From: Caproicibacterium lactatifermentans
GTDB taxonomy: Bacteria; Bacillota; Clostridia; Oscillospirales; Acutalibacteraceae
NCBI RefSeq assembly: GCF_013315815.1
Contig: NZ_CP046051.1
Span: forward strand, 62,001-126,000
Direction of reading: 5' to 3'
DNA length: 64,000 nucleotides
Part shown: piece after piece, positions 38,373 to 49,165 of the stretch
Numbering within the stretch: the first letter of the stretch is position 1
Layout of the letters: the number at the start of each line of letters is the position of its first letter
Made by a program: the position numbers and the translations under genes
The notes under the pieces: generated by a model
Database searches by the model: none
Seen by the model: only the letters and a program-made list of their open reading frames with translations
Told to the model about the DNA's origin: nothing

Positions 38373-39176
38373 TTACTTGTGCGAAACAGTTCGGCCCGCC
38401 TGCTGCCGAACCCAACAAAAGATATACTGCTGGGCAAGACCGGCCGCCGGTCCGAAAGATGATGGCGCCACACCGGGAAACCATTGTGCCATGGCTCGCT
38501 TAATCCAAACATCTTTTGGAAAAGCTTCCATACGGTGCAGGCCGTACAGCAGTGTGCAGTCGGCCACTTTTGGCCCGACACCAATAATTGTCATCAACTG
38601 ACGCCGTGCTTCTTCCAGCGGTGCGGTGCGCAGCGCTTCCAGATTCACCGTACCGCTGGCAACTTTTTCGGCGGCGTCCAACAGATACCGTGCCCGGAAG
38701 CCGCATCGCAGCGGCGCAAGGTCTTGCTCCGTTTGGCCCGCGAGTGTTTCGGCGGAAGGAAACGGGTGCAGGCTTTTCTGCTGACGCAGGCCGGACATAA
38801 TTGGGGGCAGGGATTCTTCCTGGCCGCCGCACAGCCGGTTGATAATTCCCTGAATGCGGGGGATATTATTGTTTTGTGAGAGAATGAAGGAACATAGTGC
38901 TTCCCACGGGTCCTGCCGCAGAATATGGATACCCATACCAAGCTGAGCAGCTTCCCGCAGGGTGGGATACAGGACGGCAAGCTGCCGCTGCAGTGTGTCA
39001 TAGTCGGTGCCCAAGTCAAAATAGCTGCACCAAAAAGGGTCTGCTTTTAACAGCGGCAGGTCTTTTTGGGAGACGGTCAGGAAGCGTCCGCCCGCTGTGC
39101 CCGAAAACACACCCGGTGCGGTTTCCTGCCAGCGGAAGCACTGCCCGCACAGCAGTGTTTTGCGAAGATTCAACAT
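38373..39176 (-). CDS. 8-oxoguanine DNA glycosylase/AP lyase, OGG1 type
   Basis: Base-excision repair enzyme of 267 residues from the ATG at 39176 (MLNLRKTLLCGQCFRW), with AAAGGAG upstream. It carries the helix-hairpin-helix IIGVGPKVADC, whose Lys corresponds to OGG1 Lys249, and the following catalytic Asp in FPKDVWIKR. The CGQCFRW and FILSQNNNIPRI blocks match the OGG1 family used by clostridia in place of MutM. Cytoplasmic, acting on chromosomal DNA. Transcribed separately from fba. Confidence 0.9.
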   Translation of the reverse strand: MLNLRKTLLCGQCFRWQETAPGVFSGTAGGRFLTVSQKDLPLLKADPFWCSYFDLGTDYDTLQRQLAVLYPTLREAAQLGMGIHILRQDPWEALCSFILSQNNNIPRIQGIINRLCGGQEESLPPIMSGLRQQKSLHPFPSAETLAGQTEQDLAPLRCGFRARYLLDAAEKVASGTVNLEALRTAPLEEARRQLMTIIGVGPKVADCTLLYGLHRMEAFPKDVWIKRAMAQWFPGVAPSSFGPAAGLAQQYIFCWVRQQAGRTVSHK

Positions 39177-39396
39177 TTTTTCTCCTTTGCATGAAATAGT
39201 AAAAGGAATCAACTAAATGTATAAAGAGCATAATTATGTAAATTTAAGGCGGACTTTCACCAATTTGCAGAAAGCCGATTCTTCCTGCACAGTATATCAC
39301 GAAAATACGGAAAGTTGAAGAATTCATGTAATTTCGTTTACATAATATAGTTTTTACCAGAGGTGAATAACCTTTCCACCGGCTTTTTGTACTGAC
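39177..39396. other. AT-rich intergenic region with repeated ATTATGTAAA motif
   Basis: Copies of ATTATGTAAA occur at 39233-39242 (plus) and 39336-39346 (as GTTTACATAAT), and a third at 39451-39460 just outside. No gene is supported. It leads into the DnaA-box-like cluster. Confidence 0.5.
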
Positions 39397-39682: not shown

Positions 39683-39717
39683 CAAATATTATGGGAAATG
39701 TATATGGAGGAACCAGA

Positions 39718-40503
39718 ATGAAACCGAATCGCTTGGAGCAGGACGGCCGCGTGCGCGGCGATGATGTGATAGCAGGCCGCAACGCTGTTGCGGAGGCATT
39801 GAAAAGCGGACGCCCGCTGGAGGCGCTGTACCTTGCCCGCGGTGTGCACGGCGGAAGCCTTGGCACCTTGACGGCAAAAGCCCGGGAAGCTGGCATACCG
39901 GTAAAGGAAGCCGATGCCCGCAAGTTGGACGCTATGTGCGGTGGGGCTGCCCATCAGGGTGTCGTTGCGGTTGCATCGGTTAAGCCCTATGCAACGCTGG
40001 ACGACGTGTTTGCTCTGGCAGAATCCCGCGGAGAGCCGCCGTTCCTTATTGTGGCAGACGGTCTGGAAGACCCGCATAATCTGGGCGCAGTGCTGCGGGT
40101 GGCAGAGTGCGCGGGCGCGCATGGTGTGATTATCCCCAAGCGGCGCAGCGTTGGGCTGACCTATGCGGTCGGTAAGGCCAGCGCCGGTGCAGTGGAATAT
40201 GTGCCGGTCGTGCGGGTAAATAGCCTGCCAACTGTGCTGGAGGAGCTGAAAAAGCGCGGGGTGTGGCTGTATGCCGCCGATATGGACGGCGAGCCGTGGT
40301 GCACCGTGGATTACGCCGGACCGTGTGCCATGGTCATCGGCAGTGAGGGCTTTGGTGTCAGCCGCCTGGTAAAAGAAAAGTGTGACTTTGTCATTTCCCT
40401 GCCCATGAAAGGAAAAATCAATTCCCTGAATGCTTCTGTCGCTTGTGGAATCGTATGTTATGAAGTTCTGCGGCAGCGCGCGGGGATCCACTCTAAACGC
40501 TAA
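39718..40503 (+). CDS. rlmB: 23S rRNA 2'-O-methyltransferase, RlmB/TrmH (SpoU) family
   Basis: SPOUT methyltransferase of 261 residues from the ATG at 39718, with GGAGG upstream. The N-terminal SpoU substrate-binding domain reads GRNAVAEALKSGRPLEALYLA. The knotted catalytic domain has VADGLEDPHNLGAVLRVAE, MVIGSEGFGVSRLV and LPMKGKINSLNASVA. It most likely methylates a ribose in 23S rRNA (G2251 in E. coli). The large coiled-coil fusion protein begins 20 bases downstream and may be co-transcribed. Confidence 0.9.
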   Translation: MKPNRLEQDGRVRGDDVIAGRNAVAEALKSGRPLEALYLARGVHGGSLGTLTAKAREAGIPVKEADARKLDAMCGGAAHQGVVAVASVKPYATLDDVFALAESRGEPPFLIVADGLEDPHNLGAVLRVAECAGAHGVIIPKRRSVGLTYAVGKASAGAVEYVPVVRVNSLPTVLEELKKRGVWLYAADMDGEPWCTVDYAGPCAMVIGSEGFGVSRLVKEKCDFVISLPMKGKINSLNASVACGIVCYEVLRQRAGIHSKR

Positions 40504-40522
40504 GTAGAAAGTGGGGAGTAAG

Positions 40523-43500
40523 ATGGAGAACCAGGACAAAAATCATATAGCAGATACACCGGAGAATTCCCTTCAAAAACCGGAAGAACCAATGGCAGAT
40601 GCCATGGCTTTTTCTTCTACTGCCAAAAAAGAACGCCGCGAAGAGGCGGAGCAAAAGCTGGAAGAGCAAAGACGCCGGGAAGAGGAAGAAAAGCGGCGTC
40701 AGGAAGAAGAGAAGTGCCGCAAAGCACTGCAGGAAAAGCAAGAACGGGAAGCCCGCGAGAAAAAAGCGCAGGAAGAGCGGAAACAGCGCGAAGAGCAGGA
40801 AAAACATCGGCAGGAACTGCAGGAAAAACAGGATCATGAAGCCCGTGAAAAAGCAGAGCGGGAGGAGAAGGAGCGCCAAGAGGCACTGCAGAAAAAGCAG
40901 CAGCAGGAAGAAGAAGAGCGTGCCCGGGAGCGGGAACAGGCAGAAGAAGAACGCGAACAGAAAAAAGGACAGGAAGAGCGTGTCCGTCAGGAAGCCAAAG
41001 AATCGGCTGCTACAGAAAAGCAAAAGAAGCACGAAGAGAAAAAGAACCGCCGAAAAAAGAAAAAAGAAGAGATGAGCCTTAGGAAGCAGGACAAACTTCG
41101 CCGCCGGAACAAAAAAGAAACGGCGGAGGAGGAAGACCCTTATTATGGCCTGAAACTCAAGTCCCGCGAGGAATACCAGAAAGAGTATGAGGAAACCCTC
41201 TCCTTTAAACCCATTCGTCCGGAAGAGGATAGCGAAAAGACAGGCACCTTTACTTACCTGTTTGATAAGGACGATACCGGTATTGACCCGGCCATGAGGG
41301 AAAAACTGAAGAACCTGCATGAAAAGCGCCGCCGCCGTGTCAATGAAGTGGTCAAAGAAACCGGCACCAATGACGTGGCCAAAGAAGATATTTATTCCAT
41401 TACAACGGCCATCAGCTTAGATGATATCCGCAAAGAGGCGGCAAAAAAAGGCGTGGACATCAGCCAGCAGCCAATTCCGCTGGAAGAGCCGCAGAAACCG
41501 CGGGAACGTCCCCGGAAAGAAGAAGACAAGCCGTCCATACAGGACCCGCAGGAACGGCCACTGCCTATGCAGGCGGTACAGAATCCGCAGATAGATGCAC
41601 ATTTGCCGGAAGGTGAAAAGACAACGTACCGGCCCACTGGTACGCCGGTACATATTGTACCGCTGAATGACCTGACAACGCCTGTTTTTAATGAGTCCCG
41701 CGCTTATCCGCGTGTCAGCCGCAGCGCACCCAAAGAGGAGAAGATGCCCCGCAAAGAGGAACGGGCTTCCCGCCCAGTGATTGCGGCGCCGGCAGCGGAG
41801 AAACAGGAAGAAACAGCGATACCGGTTAGCAGGCCGGTTGTTCCGGCGAAGGTGCCGGACCGCTTTGCAGACGCGGCTGTCCCGATAGACAAAACAGATG
41901 TGAAGGAAAAGCCGCTGAAGAAAAAGGCGTCTGGCCGTCCGATTGTACAGCTGACAGAAAAAAGCGCACCGGCCGATCAGCCGCAGGAGCCGGTTAAAGA
42001 AGCGGAGCTGCCCAAAAAGAAGTCATCCAGCCGTACACCTGTACAGCCGGACAAAAAGATACAGGAACCGCAGCACCGAACACCACCCGTGGAAAAGCCC
42101 GCAGCGAGAAAACCGCAGCCGCTGCATATTGCGGGAAGGCCGGAAGAACTGGACGACTACAATGCGCCGGAAGACGCAGCAGCTATTTTCCACCAGCTTG
42201 GCGGGGATCTGCGGGAGCTGGCGCTTCGGCTTTCCATTACCGGAATCTGCAGTGTGCTGGAACTGATTTTCGGTGTGATGGGTGAATTTGGTATTCTGGG
42301 TACTTCGGCACTTGGAACAACCGTTTACCTATTAAGTAGCCTTGTGTTCCTTGCAGTGGCGGTCGCTTTTTGCGGTGTCACCGTGTTTGGCGGACTGAAA
42401 GCACTGGTCCGACTGCGGGCCAACGCGGACAGCGGTGTGGCAGTTGCCAGTATCGTCGGTTTGATACAGGGCGTGTATTCTTTATTTGCGCAAAACGCCT
42501 TTGGCAAGGGTCAGCTGTACCTGTATACAGTGGTTGTCTGTGCAGCGCTGTTCCTCAATACGCTTGGGAAACTGCTGATGGTACGCCGCGTAAATAAGAA
42601 TTTCCATTATATCACGTCACCGGGTAAAAAATATGCGGTGGAAAAGTTTGATGACCACAACACGGCCCTGCAGATGGCAGAAGGTGTTACCATAGATACA
42701 CCGGAAATTGCCTGCCAGCGGGAAACCGGATTCCTGAAAAACTTCCTCCGCCTGTCTTACAGCGATGATCCCAGTGACCGCAGCAGCCAGTTCCTTGCGC
42801 CGGTTTTGTTCTGTGCCAGCCTGATACTGTTCCTGCTGATGCTGCTGTTCATTCAGCCGGGGGACGTGGGCAGCGCGCTGACCGCTTTTGCGGCGGCAAC
42901 CTGTGCAAGCATTCCGCTGATGAATATGCTTTCAGTTAACCTTCCGCTGTCGCGTGTCAGCCATGTGGCGACACAGTGCGGCGGCATGATTATCGGCTTC
43001 CCGGCTGTGCAGTATTTTTCGGGTGCCAATGCAGTGCTGGTAGACGCAAAGGACTTATTCCCGCGCGGAAGCATTGTTTTGAACGGCATTAAAACGTTCC
43101 GCGGCCAGCAGATGGATTCTGCTATTATCGATGCGGCGGCCCTGCTGCAGGCAGCGGGCGGCCCGCTGAGCAGTCTGTTCAGTCAAATTACCCGCAGCCA
43201 GATGGCGGGTGCGCCCAAAGTGGAAAATATCCAGTATGAGGACGGCCTTGGCATTTCCGGCTGGGTTGGCGGGCGCCGTGTGCTGATTGGCAGCCGGAAG
43301 CTGCTGTCCCACCACAATGTGACGCCGTCCAGTGAAGAACTGGAAAAGAAATACATGAAGGGCGGCCGTCAGGTTGTTTACCTTTCAGTCAGCGGTGAGC
43401 TGTCTGCTATGTTTATCATCACTTATAAAGCGGACCGTCACCGTTCACAGGAACTGCAGCGCATGGAAGATAATGGCATTTCCCTGATTGTGCGCAGCAA

Positions 43501-43876
43501 TGACCCCAATGTGACGGCACCGTTTCTGGCGGCTCTGTTTGGGCTGGATACGCATACGGTACGTGTCCTGCCGGACCGGTTGGGACAGGTATATGAGTCC
43601 ATGGAAAAGCAGCCGAAGAAGGAAGCAAATGCGCTGATTGCGACCAGAGGGCGCACCACAACGATGATGCGTCTGGTAACAGCCTGTGTGCGGCAGCGGT
43701 CGAACATCTCGCTTGCCGTGGTTTTGCAGAACGTCAGTGCAGTGCTGGGCTTTGTTCTGGTAGCCTTCCTGTGCTGGCAGAAAGGTATGCAGCAGGTCAG
43801 TACCTTGGGCATATTTATTTATGAAGCGTTCTGGTGTTTGGCTATTTGGCTGGTACCAAAATTGCGGAAACCGTAA
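40523..43876 (+). CDS. Charged coiled-coil protein fused to a degenerate P-type ATPase
   Basis: Unusual protein of 1117 residues. Residues about 30-200 are an almost unbroken Lys/Glu/Arg/Gln coiled coil; 200-550 is a low-complexity, Pro/Lys/Glu-rich linker. From about 560 it is membrane-bound and follows the layout of P1-type ATPases: helices at 560-690 and a pair at 760-805 (TCASIP where CPC would be). The phosphorylation loop reads VDAKDLF in place of DKTGT (Asp841), an N-domain-like block reads GLGISGWVGGRRVLIGSRKLL, and a P-domain-like block ends VRSNDPN where TGDN is expected. The catalytic loop is not DKTGT, so no phosphoenzyme is expected. The start is ATG at 40523 after GGGGAG; a GTG 12 bases earlier is possible. 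Function unknown. Confidence 0.8.
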   Translation: MENQDKNHIADTPENSLQKPEEPMADAMAFSSTAKKERREEAEQKLEEQRRREEEEKRRQEEEKCRKALQEKQEREAREKKAQEERKQREEQEKHRQELQEKQDHEAREKAEREEKERQEALQKKQQQEEEERAREREQAEEEREQKKGQEERVRQEAKESAATEKQKKHEEKKNRRKKKKEEMSLRKQDKLRRRNKKETAEEEDPYYGLKLKSREEYQKEYEETLSFKPIRPEEDSEKTGTFTYLFDKDDTGIDPAMREKLKNLHEKRRRRVNEVVKETGTNDVAKEDIYSITTAISLDDIRKEAAKKGVDISQQPIPLEEPQKPRERPRKEEDKPSIQDPQERPLPMQAVQNPQIDAHLPEGEKTTYRPTGTPVHIVPLNDLTTPVFNESRAYPRVSRSAPKEEKMPRKEERASRPVIAAPAAEKQEETAIPVSRPVVPAKVPDRFADAAVPIDKTDVKEKPLKKKASGRPIVQLTEKSAPADQPQEPVKEAELPKKKSSSRTPVQPDKKIQEPQHRTPPVEKPAARKPQPLHIAGRPEELDDYNAPEDAAAIFHQLGGDLRELALRLSITGICSVLELIFGVMGEFGILGTSALGTTVYLLSSLVFLAVAVAFCGVTVFGGLKALVRLRANADSGVAVASIVGLIQGVYSLFAQNAFGKGQLYLYTVVVCAALFLNTLGKLLMVRRVNKNFHYITSPGKKYAVEKFDDHNTALQMAEGVTIDTPEIACQRETGFLKNFLRLSYSDDPSDRSSQFLAPVLFCASLILFLLMLLFIQPGDVGSALTAFAAATCASIPLMNMLSVNLPLSRVSHVATQCGGMIIGFPAVQYFSGANAVLVDAKDLFPRGSIVLNGIKTFRGQQMDSAIIDAAALLQAAGGPLSSLFSQITRSQMAGAPKVENIQYEDGLGISGWVGGRRVLIGSRKLLSHHNVTPSSEELEKKYMKGGRQVVYLSVSGELSAMFIITYKADRHRSQELQRMEDNGISLIVRSNDPNVTAPFLAALFGLDTHTVRVLPDRLGQVYESMEKQPKKEANALIATRGRTTTMMRLVTACVRQRSNISLAVVLQNVSAVLGFVLVAFLCWQKGMQQVSTLGIFIYEAFWCLAIWLVPKLRKP

Positions 43877-44046: not shown

Positions 44047-44075
44047 TTGCCTTGTGTGGTAATATGATATATAAT
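44047..44075 (+). promoter_or_regulatory. Promoter of the EF-G paralogue
   Basis: TTGCCT (44047-44052), 17 bases, TATAAT (44070-44075), about 60 bases before the ATG. Confidence 0.65.
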
Positions 44076-44135
44076 TATGGCAATATGATAATAGATATTT
44101 ATTAAAAACAACTACCCGTGAAGGGAGAAAGAGCA

Positions 44136-46202
44136 ATGAAATCGTATTCTGCAAAAAACATTTTAAATATTGCGCTGGCAGGCCATTCCGGCGCCGGCAA
44201 GACCAGTATTGCGGAAGCTATGCTGAAGCTTTCCGGCGCGACTGACCGCCTCGGCAAAGTGGACAGCGGCAATACCGTATGTGATTACGACCCGGAGGAG
44301 GCTCGCCGCGGGGTAAGCATTTCCGCCGCAGTGGCACCGCTGGAGTGGAAGGGATATAAAATAAATCTGCTGGACGCTCCCGGGCTGTTCGACTTTGCCG
44401 GTGCAGCTGCCGAAGCGGTGCGTGCGGCGGACAGTGTGCTCATTGCCGTCAGTGGACGTGACGGCGTGTGTGTCGGCACAAAAAAGGCCGTTGCCGCGGC
44501 AGACAGCCGCGGGCTGGCCAAAGCTTTCTTTGTCAATGGACTGTGCGATGAGAGCGCTCGCTTTTACCATGTGTTTGAGGATTTGAAAGCGAGCTTCGGT
44601 CCGGCGGTTTGCCCGGTTGTCGTGCCGTACATACAGGACGGGCAGGCAAATATTTATATTAATTTACTGGAATACAAGGCCTATGATTACTCCAACGGCG
44701 CACCGGTCGAGGTGAAAATGCCGGATATGGGGGACCACCGTTTGCAGGGACTACGCACGGCCATCTGTGAGGCTGTTGCTGAAACAAGTGACGAGATGTT
44801 CGAAAAGTATTTTTCTGGACAAGAATTTACACCGGAGGAAGTCATTGTCGGCGTGTCCCACGGCGTAAAGGCCGGCACCATTATGCCGGTATTTTGCGGC
44901 GATGCACTGTTGATGCGCGGCATGGAACAGTTCCTGGATGGGATTGTCTGGCTGCTGCCCAGCGCGGCGGAAAAAGCCGCTGAAATCGGCACGGATGTCA
45001 ACGACGACCCGGTGGAATTGCAGGTAAATGAAGAAGCGGCAACGGCGGCAATTTGTTTTAAGACGATTGCGGACCCCTTTGTCGGCAAGGTCAGTTTCCT
45101 CAAGTGCGTTTCCGGAAAAGTGGAACAGGACGGCATCCTTATCAATATGCGTACAGGTGGAAGTGAGCATATCGGCAAGGTGGTGCTGATGCGCGGCAAA
45201 AAGCAGGAAGATATGCGTGTGATTCCCGCCGGCGATATCGGTGCAGTGCTGAAGCTGTCCGGAACTGCTACAGGGGATACCCTGTGTGCGCCTGCCCGCA
45301 AGGTGACGCTGGACGGCGTGGACTATCCCAACGCGCCGCTGCGCATGGCTATTCTGCCAAAGCAGAAGGGCGAGGAAGATAAAATTGCGCAGGCTATTTT
45401 CCGCCTGATGGAAGAGGACCCGACCATTGGGTATGAAAATAATGTGGAAACACATGAAATGGTTATTTCCGGTCTGGGTGAACAGCATCTAGACGTTGTG
45501 CTTTCCAAACTGCAGAATCGCTACGGCGTAGAGGCGGTTCTAAAAACACCGCGTGTGCCCTACCGCGAAACAATCCGCAAGACTGTAAAGGTACAGGGAC
45601 GCCACAAAAAGCAGACCGGCGGCCACGGGCAGTTCGGTGATGTATGGATTGCGTTTAGCCCCTGCGACAGCAAAGATATGGTCTTTGACGAGCACGTTGT
45701 CGGCGGCAGCGTGCCGAAGGGGTATTTCCCCGCCGTAGAAAAAGGGCTGCGGGAGTGCATTTCCAGCGGGCCGCTGGCCGGATACCCGGTGGTGGGACTG
45801 CACGCGACCCTGTATGACGGCTCCTACCATCCGGTGGACAGTTCTGAAATGGCCTTTAAGACAGCGGCCAGCTTAGCCTATAAAGCCGGTATGCCGCAGG
45901 CGGACCCGGTTCTGCTGGAGCCAATCGGTACGCTGAAAGCAACCGTTCCGGATGGCAATATGGGCGATGTAATGGGTGCTGTCAACAAGCGCCGCGGCCG
46001 TGTGCAGGGCATGGAACCGGCACAGACCGGCTACCAAACGATTGAAGCAGAAGTGCCGGTATCAGAAATGGCGGACTTTTCTACCTTCCTGCGTCAGGTG
46101 ACTCAGGGCCAGGGCACTTATACTTTTGCTTTCGCAAGGTATGAACAGTGCCCGCCGCAGATTGCGGAAAAAGTGATTGCGGCCGCCAGACAAGACGGCT
46201 GA
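44136..46202 (+). CDS. Elongation factor G paralogue (EF-G2-like translation-factor GTPase)
   Basis: 688 residues with EF-G domain order: G domain, domain II, then III-V (GLGEQHLDVVLSKL, KQTGGHGQFGDVWI, ending in the domain IV-V pattern PDGNMGDVMGAVNKRRG). The P-loop AGHSGAGKTS is intact. G3 is DAPGLFDF where true EF-G has DTPGHVDF, so the catalytic His is Leu. G4 is VNGLCDE instead of VNKMD. It is therefore probably not the housekeeping translocase. ATG at 44136 after AAGGGAG; a start 18 bases upstream is less likely. Own promoter and terminator. Confidence 0.87.
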   Translation: MKSYSAKNILNIALAGHSGAGKTSIAEAMLKLSGATDRLGKVDSGNTVCDYDPEEARRGVSISAAVAPLEWKGYKINLLDAPGLFDFAGAAAEAVRAADSVLIAVSGRDGVCVGTKKAVAAADSRGLAKAFFVNGLCDESARFYHVFEDLKASFGPAVCPVVVPYIQDGQANIYINLLEYKAYDYSNGAPVEVKMPDMGDHRLQGLRTAICEAVAETSDEMFEKYFSGQEFTPEEVIVGVSHGVKAGTIMPVFCGDALLMRGMEQFLDGIVWLLPSAAEKAAEIGTDVNDDPVELQVNEEAATAAICFKTIADPFVGKVSFLKCVSGKVEQDGILINMRTGGSEHIGKVVLMRGKKQEDMRVIPAGDIGAVLKLSGTATGDTLCAPARKVTLDGVDYPNAPLRMAILPKQKGEEDKIAQAIFRLMEEDPTIGYENNVETHEMVISGLGEQHLDVVLSKLQNRYGVEAVLKTPRVPYRETIRKTVKVQGRHKKQTGGHGQFGDVWIAFSPCDSKDMVFDEHVVGGSVPKGYFPAVEKGLRECISSGPLAGYPVVGLHATLYDGSYHPVDSSEMAFKTAASLAYKAGMPQADPVLLEPIGTLKATVPDGNMGDVMGAVNKRRGRVQGMEPAQTGYQTIEAEVPVSEMADFSTFLRQVTQGQGTYTFAFARYEQCPPQIAEKVIAAARQDG

Positions 46203-46484: not shown

Positions 46485-47507
46485 ATGATTCAGTTTGTAA
46501 ATGTCAGCAAGGAATTTTCAAGCAGCACCGAAAATGTTAATGCACTGCGCGGAGTGAACCTTACCATCGAAAAGGGCGACATTTTCGGTGTTATCGGTTT
46601 CAGCGGCGCGGGAAAATCCACCTTGCTGCGTATGGTAAACGCACTGGAAACACCAACTGCCGGTCAGGTATTGGTGCAGGGAAAAGACTTGGAAAAGATT
46701 CCCCCTGCCGAACTGCGCAAGGAACGCAAGAAGATTGCCATGGTGTTTCAGCAGTTCAATTTGCTGGATTCCCGCACGGTCTTTGACAACGTCGCCATGC
46801 CGCTGAAATTAAACCATATATCCAAAGTACAAATCGCCGACCGGGTGGAGAAGCTGCTCACATTCGTTGAACTTTCTGATAAGTGGGATGCCTACCCCGC
46901 AAAGCTTTCCGGAGGGCAGAAACAGCGTGTCGGCATTGCCCGCGCACTGGCGACACAGCCGTCCATCCTGTTATGTGACGAACCCACCAGCGCGCTCGAC
47001 CCCAAAACGACCGATTCCATTTTACAACTGCTGCAAAAGGTCAACCGGGAGCTGGGCGTTACTATCCTGATTATTACGCATCAAATCAACGTTATTCAAA
47101 AAATTTGCAACCGTGTTGCTGTTATGGAAAGCGGCCGTGTTGTTGAGCAGGGGACGGTTTTGGATGTTTTTAGCCACCCGAAAGAATCCATTACCAAAGA
47201 TTTCGTTTCCACGGTCATTGATGACCACATACCGGAAAGTATTAAAAAATCCATTGCCACCGAGACACGGAACAGCACCATTATGCGACTGCACTTTCTT
47301 GGCAGCAATTCCCGTGAAGCACTGATTTCCGCCATCAATAAAAAATTTGATGTGGAAACCAACATTCTGTTTGCTTCTGTACATGAACTGCAAGGAACCG
47401 TGCTTGGCACACTGGTGCTTCAGCTGGTTGGCCCGCGGGAAGAAATTGCGGCAGCGGAAACGTATATCCAAAAATCGGATGTTGACTTTGAGGAGGTAGC
47501 CGTATGA
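46485..47507 (+). CDS. metN: Methionine ABC transporter ATP-binding protein MetN
   Basis: 340-residue ATPase energising methionine (or methionine sulfoxide) import. Walker A GFSGAGKST, signature LSGGQKQR, Walker B ILLCDEPTSALD, and the H-loop in IITHQ. The C-terminal 90 residues form the NIL domain that binds methionine and inhibits transport, which separates MetN from other ATPases. Followed by metI with a four-base ATGA overlap. Confidence 0.93.
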   Translation: MIQFVNVSKEFSSSTENVNALRGVNLTIEKGDIFGVIGFSGAGKSTLLRMVNALETPTAGQVLVQGKDLEKIPPAELRKERKKIAMVFQQFNLLDSRTVFDNVAMPLKLNHISKVQIADRVEKLLTFVELSDKWDAYPAKLSGGQKQRVGIARALATQPSILLCDEPTSALDPKTTDSILQLLQKVNRELGVTILIITHQINVIQKICNRVAVMESGRVVEQGTVLDVFSHPKESITKDFVSTVIDDHIPESIKKSIATETRNSTIMRLHFLGSNSREALISAINKKFDVETNILFASVHELQGTVLGTLVLQLVGPREEIAAAETYIQKSDVDFEEVAV

Positions 47508-48163
47508 TTGACCTTGACATACCAAATGAAAAAATCCTGCTGGCGGCACAGCAGACTATTTATATGGTCGGCATTGCTTTAATTATCGGCACCATTCTTG
47601 GCGCCGCCATGGCAGTTATCCTTGTGCTGACTCGAAAAGGCGGCATCCGCCCAAACAAAATCGTGTACGGCATTCTGAATGCTGTCATTAACGTGGTGCG
47701 CAGTATTCCGTTTATTATCTTAATGGTTTTTATTATGCCGCTGACGAAGGCTATTGTTGGCACACGTATCGGTACAACAGCCGCCATTGTTCCATTGGTC
47801 GTGTTCATTGCTCCGTACCTTGCGCGTTTGCTGGAAAGTTCCTTACTGGAAGTAAACCGTGGCATTGTAGAAGCGGCGCAGTCTATGGGTGCCACCACAT
47901 TTCAAATCATCTGGCATTTCCTGTTGCCGGAATCCAGCGGTTCGCTTATCCTTGCATTGACTAACGGCGCCATTGGCCTTTTGGGTGCCACCGCAATGGC
48001 GGGTGCTATCGGTGCAGGCGGTGTTGGTGACTTGGCGCTAACCTACGGCTATGAGCGTATGAATTTCCCGCTGATGCTGTTCACTATCATTGTGCTCATT
48101 GTTTTTGTGCAGCTGATTCAAGTGCTGGGAAACTTTCTTTCCCGCAGGCTGCGGCATAAATAA
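47504..48163 (+). CDS. metI: Methionine ABC transporter permease MetI
   Basis: Membrane permease of 219 residues with five predicted helices. The coupling motif is VEAAQSMGATTFQIIWHFLLPES. The ending PLMLFTIIVLIVFVQLIQVLGNFLSRRL is typical for the family. The start overlaps the metN stop. A hairpin separates it from metQ. Confidence 0.93.
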   Translation: MIDLDIPNEKILLAAQQTIYMVGIALIIGTILGAAMAVILVLTRKGGIRPNKIVYGILNAVINVVRSIPFIILMVFIMPLTKAIVGTRIGTTAAIVPLVVFIAPYLARLLESSLLEVNRGIVEAAQSMGATTFQIIWHFLLPESSGSLILALTNGAIGLLGATAMAGAIGAGGVGDLALTYGYERMNFPLMLFTIIVLIVFVQLIQVLGNFLSRRLRHK

Positions 48164-48191
48164 ACAGCAAAACAGGAAGCAACAAGACAGA

Positions 48192-48223
48192 GAGAACCTG
48201 CAAGGAAGGTTCTCAAGACTTTT
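48192..48223 (+). terminator. Attenuating hairpin between metI and metQ
   Basis: Eight-pair stem GAGAACCT / AGGTTCTC followed by AAGACTTTTT; the weak T-tract suggests partial termination or 3'-end protection. Confidence 0.5.
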
Positions 48224-48298
48224 TACAACGCAAAGTCATGATATAAAAATGCACATTTTCAAAACACAGAAGAAATTTGAGAGGAGAGGTATTTCATT

Positions 48299-49165
48299 AT
48301 GAAAAAGGATTTTATCATCCGTAAAATTACCGCACTCGGACTTGCTGCATTGTTTGCGTCCGTTTCCCTTACCGGCTGCGGTGAAACTGCCTTCTCGTCG
48401 TCCGGAAGCACTGCTTCTACCGCGCAGGCAAAAAAGGAATTAAAATTCAGTAAATCGCAGGGGCCGTACAGCGAACTTTTCCAAAAAGGAGTTCAGCCCA
48501 TTCTGGAGAAAAAAGGATACAAAATTAACGCCGTCGATATGTCTGACCTTTCGCAGGCCGATTCTGCTCTAAATGACGGCGAGGTTGACTTTAATGTAGA
48601 ACAGCATGTAACCTATATGAACAATTTTAACAAAACGCAAAACGGACATCTTGCGGCGGTCACACCGATTCCAACGGTTCCGGCCGGTATCTATTCCGGT
48701 TCCAAAACTGCGCTGAAACAGCTTACCGATGGATCCAAGATTGCTGTTCCAAATGACGCTGCCAACACCGCACGCGCCTATGTGCTGCTGCAGAAAGCTG
48801 GATGGATTAAACTGAAAGCCGGTATAGAACCTACCAAGGCCACACAGGAGGATATTGCAGAAAACCCGTACCACATCCAGTTTGTAGAAATGAAATCCCT
48901 AAATATTCCATCTGTGCGCTCCGATTTTGATTTCATTGTTATTACCGGCTCTATCGTATACAATGCAAAAATTGACCCCTCCACCGCACTGCTTGAGGAG
49001 GACATTCTGCCCGACCTGATGCTGCATCTGGTTGTAAAAGATTCCGATGAAAACAGCCAGTGGGCAAAGGATATTGCCGCCGCTTACCAGTCTGATGAAT
49101 TTAAGACCTACCTCGACAAAAACAACAACGGTCTGTGGACGGTACCTGATTACAGCAAGAAATAA
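48299..49165 (+). CDS. metQ: Methionine ABC transporter substrate-binding lipoprotein MetQ (NlpA family)
   Basis: 288 residues. Lipoprotein signal with lipobox SLTGC (Cys27). The NlpA fold is recognisable: QADSALNDGEVDFNVEQHVTYM, AVPNDAANTARAYVLLQKAGWI and YHIQFVEM. Ligand is methionine in the characterised members, but NlpA proteins may bind related compounds. Lies 135 bases after metI with its own ribosome site (GAGAGGAG). Confidence 0.9.
   Translation: MKKDFIIRKITALGLAALFASVSLTGCGETAFSSSGSTASTAQAKKELKFSKSQGPYSELFQKGVQPILEKKGYKINAVDMSDLSQADSALNDGEVDFNVEQHVTYMNNFNKTQNGHLAAVTPIPTVPAGIYSGSKTALKQLTDGSKIAVPNDAANTARAYVLLQKAGWIKLKAGIEPTKATQEDIAENPYHIQFVEMKSLNIPSVRSDFDFIVITGSIVYNAKIDPSTALLEEDILPDLMLHLVVKDSDENSQWAKDIAAAYQSDEFKTYLDKNNNGLWTVPDYSKK

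Follow-up and report, generated by a model that had tools for sequence, protein, structure and literature searches.

Pseudoenzymes are well known among kinases and phosphatases. Here we describe a gene for a pump-like protein without the catalytic parts of a pump, found in a stretch of 64,000 nucleotides from Caproicibacterium lactatifermentans (contig NZ_CP046051.1, positions 62,001 to 126,000; hereafter called the window) and encoding a pseudo-P1B-ATPase. As far as the available text of the reports goes, its closest analogue is human TMEM94/ERMA (PMC13322241, PMC12134183, PMC10654040, PMC7858053), a likeness by description. That protein is said to share the P-type ATPase architecture, to have altered DKTGT and GDGVND motifs, and to lack TGES (PMC13322241, PMC12134183), but it is eukaryotic, has ten helices, is nearest in structure to SPCA, and has its motifs substituted, whereas here they are deleted. 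The P4-ATPase domain of Plasmodium guanylyl cyclase alpha is likewise a P-type ATPase module joined to another function; according to the part of the source available, however, it is eukaryotic, is fused to a cyclase, conserves the catalytic Asp, and, per the title, has an essential activity (PMC7858053). Among the matches listed from the open-access literature, obtained with search terms that were possibly narrow and with subscription journals mostly outside, there was no bacterial pseudo-P-type ATPase, and human TMEM94 was the one debated case of a pseudo-P-type ATPase.

Also close among known proteins is the P1B-type copper pump CopA (PDB 3rfu and 4bbj; NF007952, TIGR01525). Like CopA, the protein has eight helices (MA, MB, and M1 to M6) and the P and N domains in order, together with an NMD-like motif, the N-domain glycines, and a break in helix M4. 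Unlike in CopA, deletions have removed TGE and GDGxND, and DAKDL stands in place of DKTGT, IPL in place of CPC, and AGGP in place of SEHP; Pfam finds no metal-binding domain in the protein.

Pump fold and deleted catalytic segments

The P1B plan runs in the correct order (MA-MB-M1-M2-A-M3-M4-P-N-P-M5-M6, with the A domain only a remnant) across the C-terminal ~570 residues of the 1117-residue protein. PDB 3rfu is matched at 9e-12 by this sequence alone and at 6.5e-34 when the family profile is used, which is far beyond chance. The predicted structure is that of a P1B ATPase and not the unrelated fold that, by the preliminary description, would have refuted the idea; its N domain superposes on that of CopA (2voy_J) with a root mean square deviation of 2.2 over 115 residues, and M4 is broken into two helices (242 to 255 and 261 to 278 in the model). 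The domain order given in the preliminary description thus stands, but CAS (residues 794 to 796), which it placed at the CPC position, does not lie there; in the merged alignment I797-P798-L799 does. Family models recognize the protein poorly. The NCBIfam heavy-metal ATPase model TIGR01525 gave 49.5 bits against a curated cutoff of 346.25, and the CopA-type model 63.4 against 1316. Pfam assigned no family to the window protein at an E value of ≤10 and only four stray families to 38 relatives; in an NCBIfam search with 40 members the matches were to P1B models, apart from two stray ones, including SepX/GlpR at 0.0035 in one member.

We followed the catalytic motifs in a merged alignment (79 family rows plus CopA) and in two sets of proteins, 99 diverse members and 121 close proteins, the latter counting the window protein itself and also its copy in the database. 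The columns of CopA's TGE and GDGIND are gaps in 79/79 family rows, although the joining of two profiles in this alignment itself accounts for part of the gap sharing. String searches agree with it: GDGxND, DKTGT, and TGE[SP] each occur in none of the 99 diverse members, and GDGxND in none of the 121 close proteins. Among the close proteins DKTGT occurs in two, both times in the N-terminal linker and not at the catalytic place, and TGE[SP] occurs in eight, always outside the A-domain place. Counted anywhere in the protein, DKxG is found in 11 of the 99 diverse members and a CPC, SPC, TPC, or CPH-like string in 2. The CPC column is mostly V/A/T/I-P-F/V/L. The Glu and the His of SEHP are each Gly in 61/79 rows, and the Lys of motif III is Leu in 44/79.

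Other positions are kept. All 99 diverse members have G910, which is the second Gly of GxG, and G923, and in two alignments (of 79 and of 40 rows) no other column is invariant; the first GxG Gly is present in 50/99. In motif I the KTGT is lost and the Asp retained (68/99 diverse members, 121/121 close proteins), with a family-conserved [DE]-[LIV]-[FY]-P standing for GTLT. In the TGD motif the Asp is kept in 97/99 and T or S in 83/99, while the Gly is lost. C794 is found in 64/99 and P798 in 74/99 diverse members, the latter also in 121/121 close proteins.

With TGE and GDGxND lost and DKTGT replaced, the usual phosphoryl transfer is, to judge from the sequence, most improbable, and the family is very probably catalytically dead. 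The pseudo-ATPase claim of the preliminary description is strongly supported by the deletions in 79 aligned members, by conservation across the order, and by purifying selection. Homologues with an intact DKTGT were sought; the motif is absent from all 99 diverse members and is out of place wherever it occurs in the 121 close proteins. As to the key residues, the changes of DKTGT to D841-A-K-D-L and of TGD to S992-N-D994 are real, but both Asp residues (D841 and D994) are retained in the window protein, and the loss of the whole TGE and GDGxND segments had not been mentioned. We dropped the idea that DGxND had become TRGRPT, for in the CopA alignment the segment is deleted and TRGR is located after the deletion.

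Distribution, descent, and position beside rlmB

From the relatives' organism names, which include Caproicibacterium, Caproiciproducens, and Anaeromassilibacillus, the order that carries the family appears to be the Oscillospirales in GTDB terms, an order common in guts. The profile, used at an E value of ≤1e-45 with no more than four candidates scored in each genome, matched 268 of the 290 genomes sampled from the order, including 213 of the 221 of good quality, with one match each. In a sample of the class (391 genomes), matches above 200 bits fell only within the order, which had them in 17 of 18 genomes; outside it the best match, 128.8 bits, covered columns 215 to 491, the part common to ordinary pumps. 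A sample of the phylum gave 6 matches among 398, all from the order. Eight good-quality genomes had no match. Of the seven listed, four (G104, G063, G090, and G133) also lack an rlmB orthologue, two of them holding only a weak relative, which would fit either joint loss of both genes or a shared assembly gap. In two others rlmB is followed by a family member that is cut by the fetched stretch or falls under the threshold, and in one rlmB lies ~0.4 kb from the contig end.

The window's own genome (1.99 Mb, a single contig) has three P1B pumps over the cutoff and five further DKTGT-bearing P-type ATPases. In a 30-row tree a 100/100 branch split 22 family members from these 8 ATPases; the branches are long and the inner order is unsure. 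Ratios of nonsynonymous to synonymous substitution rates (dN/dS) were 0.03 to 0.12 in the seven closest pairs, indicating purifying selection. One locus (L025, G022:C38) has a single in-frame TGA within an otherwise well-matching frame, which may be a sequencing error, decay, or recoding.

The upstream neighbor, an rRNA methyltransferase gene according to the preliminary description, is indeed that for RlmB (224.2 bits with TIGR00186, cutoff 160.15). The ATG of the pseudo-ATPase gene lies 19 bases past the rlmB stop codon, and the two genes look like a single transcription unit. All 73 loci whose flank sufficed (of 102 loci, 29 were too short to score) have rlmB upstream in the same orientation. 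Its distance is 665 to 993 bases in three of these (L065, L070, and L095), and two of the three, L065 and L070, have a frame split in two. In 20/20 further divergent members from 15 families rlmB is upstream within ~120 bases; the two collections of loci may overlap in species. No other neighbor is fixed: within 4 kb, rlmB was found in 52/52 loci, an OGG-like glycosylase in 27/52, an aldolase in 11/52, and elongation factor G (EF-G) in 21/63. Distances among the rlmB proteins and among the family proteins are correlated (0.91 for 95 pairs; permuted maximum, 0.22), but such a correlation is expected from joint vertical descent and is therefore alone no proof of interaction.

A family without a Pfam model thus occurs in nearly every sampled genome of its order, with the pump engine cleanly deleted and in a fixed position beside an rRNA methyltransferase gene. 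It offers a test, set up by nature, of what in the pump fold serves roles other than transport. In databases its members are mostly called hypothetical protein, and otherwise membrane protein of unknown function, cation transport ATPase, HAD family hydrolase, or Copper-transporting P-type ATPase; the cation and copper ATPase names mislead surveys of metal resistance.

N-terminal tail and possible roles

Residues 36 to 200 are 68% charged. The preliminary description called this Lys/Glu stretch a coiled coil, but a crude periodicity test gave no heptad signal (power of 0.3 at 102.9 degrees, 6.5 at 100, and 17.9 at 80). Because that signal is absent, a charged single helix or disorder may fit better. 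The length of the stretch ahead of the next conserved segment differs among relatives; the profile of that segment (residues ~200 to 285) matches 54 of 127 loci, a set in which some loci lack part of the N terminus because they are cut there. A short peptide such as YSVDDILAEYG or FSIDEILAEA lies near the N terminus of many members; in the branch to which the window protein belongs, EEPMADAMAFS stands there instead. A relaxed pattern of seven positions ([LIVFYM][DESNQT][DESQVNK][IVL][LIM]x[EDQ], with x one of ten residues) was found in 103/120 close proteins, 118/120 of a distant set, and 73/102 loci, whereas shuffling gave means of 0.3, 0.6, and 1.7; in other parts of the tails it occurred in 11/147 windows. 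A strict pattern was found in 53/121 close proteins, 117/120 of the distant set, and 41/114 loci. These sets contain near-copies, so their counts are not independent. A conserved peptide ending a variable tail looks like a docking motif. As a general docking motif it was rejected: the strict coding pattern [DE][DE]I[LF]AE[FY] had only four matches, in 3/10 genomes, although it would miss variants whose last residue is A or Q, so that the peptide may yet be a shared hub motif. The four were one family member, a 21-residue frame, a frame with a terminal motif, and a frame of 246 residues that has hydrophobic stretches and that we take to be DUF1700-like. Four fetched members (L120 to L123; open frames of 548 to 564 residues) have no tail, and thus the module of membrane part and headpiece can stand alone.

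We favor, with moderate confidence, the reading that the family is an order-wide pseudo-P1B-ATPase, a dead former copper pump retained as a membrane protein beside rlmB. Since engine parts are deleted, it was probably turned to some nonpump role. An ancestral copper-pump-like protein would have lost TGE, the Mg-binding GDGxND segment, and the metal-binding CPC, and would then have stayed next to rlmB as one of the order's core membrane proteins. It would act through a pump-like shape change or docking and not through transport, and a nontransport scaffold or sensor, as the preliminary description proposed, is reasonably likely. The eight-helix bundle would be the membrane anchor; the N domain, which bears the module's only two invariant residues, may bind a nucleotide or other small ligand and so sense it; the tail with its recurring leading peptide may recruit a cytoplasmic partner. 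Coexpression with rlmB would make the level of the pseudo-pump track ribosome production. A nucleotide-responsive pseudo-pump is a tentative proposal, somewhat short of an even chance, and a functional link to rlmB beyond a regulatory one is doubtful. More doubtful still is the fullest version, a core noncatalytic membrane receptor derived from a copper pump, responsive to nucleotide, whose ILAE-type peptide couples ribosome status, via the rlmB operon, to some process of the membrane or cell envelope that is specific to the order.

Several points weigh against the favored reading. A pure scaffold would need neither the motif-I Asp nor the TGD Asp, and both are kept in 121/121 close proteins. 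Nucleotide binding is weakened by the loss of the Glu and His of SEHP and, in about half of the diverse members, of the first GxG Gly. The tail is missing in some members and the leading peptide, diverged in the window's branch, is patchy by the strict pattern (except in the distant set), so neither is essential to a common function. Finally, in the available text ERMA, which has GSSANL for GDGVND and no TGES, is claimed to be active, its D427N mutant reportedly losing Mg2+ uptake (PMC13322241), although this is disputed (PMC12134183).

The last point and the two kept aspartates would suit an atypical active pump, in which D841 is phosphorylated with another arrangement of the metal and some substrate is transported. 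We consider this very unlikely: the motif-I Asp is present in just two-thirds of the diverse members, TGE and GDGxND are deleted rather than substituted, the CPC site of the window protein is hydrophobic, and the ERMA precedent is itself contested. Alternatively, with no use of ATP, the eight-helix bundle might make the protein a passive channel, a scramblase, or a lipid binder. The M4 break, retained with P798 in every close protein, would suit this, and TMEM94 has been described, in the part of the report available, with lipid inside the bundle (PMC12134183). This reading is nonetheless unlikely, as the intramembrane positions C794 and P798 vary in distant members. Sharing its fold with the pumps, in a cell that has eight genuine P-type ATPases, the protein might instead be a regulatory partner that pairs with one of them or mimics its dimer interface, but the fixed neighbor is rlmB and no pump (other neighbors were compared only with the window's genes), and we rate this as quite unlikely. 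A decayed pump on its way out, or an annotation artifact, would account for the lost catalytic motifs and for little else; we rejected it, its probability being next to nil, given the order-wide presence with one match per genome, the restriction seen in the phylum sample, the 100/100 branch, the low dN/dS, and the fixed locus.

Features and neighboring genes

TABLE 1 Features of the pseudo-P1B-ATPase locus, in window positions
Feature	Position	Strand	Basis or remark
rlmB, 23S rRNA Gm2251 methyltransferase	39691..40503	+	TIGR00186; first gene of putative two-gene unit
Intergenic gap, 19 bases, with Shine-Dalgarno-like GGGGAG before ATG 40523	40504..40522	+	Sequence inspection
Pseudo-P1B-ATPase gene	40523..43876	+	Open frame, 1117 residues
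N-terminal peptide region, residues 20-32, PEEPMADAMAFSS	40580..40618	+	Own-branch form at place of relatives' ILAE-type peptide; putative equivalent, from position only
E/K/R-rich charged stretch, residues 36-200	40628..41122	+	Composition and periodicity
Cytosolic segment, residues 200-285, YYGLxLK..EEY...FxYLFD	41120..41377	+	Conserved in close relatives
Proline-rich low-complexity linker, residues 300-540	41420..42142	+	Composition
Helices MA, MB, M1, M2, residues 549-698	42167..42616	+	Alignment and model; N634-A-D636 at CopA NMD position
Remnant A domain, residues 700-749, without TGE segment	42620..42769	+	Merged alignment and model
Helices M3 and M4	42770..42976	+	M4 broken around I797-P798-L799 (42911-42919), CopA's CPC place
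Motif I, D841-A-K-D-L-F-P847 replacing DKTGTLT	43043..43063	+	Alignment
N domain, residues 849-969	43067..43429	+	G910 (43250-43252) and G923 (43289-43291) invariant; His of SEHP is G880
S992-N-D994-P-N, place of TGD	43496..43510	+	Alignment
Helices M5 and M6	43655..43864	+	GDGxND segment, ahead of M5 in pumps, deleted
Terminator-like hairpin and T-run directly past stop codon	43900..43916	+	Pattern match only

The features of the locus are collected in Table 1. The hairpin pattern used there matched 14 sites in a 5-kb region, with 7.3 expected. Downstream, at 44118 to 46202, is a gene for an EF-G-like translation factor (NF009381, 832 bits), with a promoter-like TTGCCT-17-TATAAT ahead of it at 44047 to 44075. 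EF-G was rejected as a fixed downstream partner, as it lies within 1.2 kb in only 17/64 loci. On the minus strand at 38373 to 39212 is a gene resembling that for an OGG-type 8-oxoguanine DNA glycosylase (145.8 bits; cutoff, 397.85), a frequent but not a fixed neighbor. Farther on, positions 46485 to 49165 probably hold a methionine uptake system, headed by a MetN-like ATP-binding cassette ATPase (384.8 bits; cutoff, 499.7), which is followed by what are presumably a permease and a lipoprotein-like gene.
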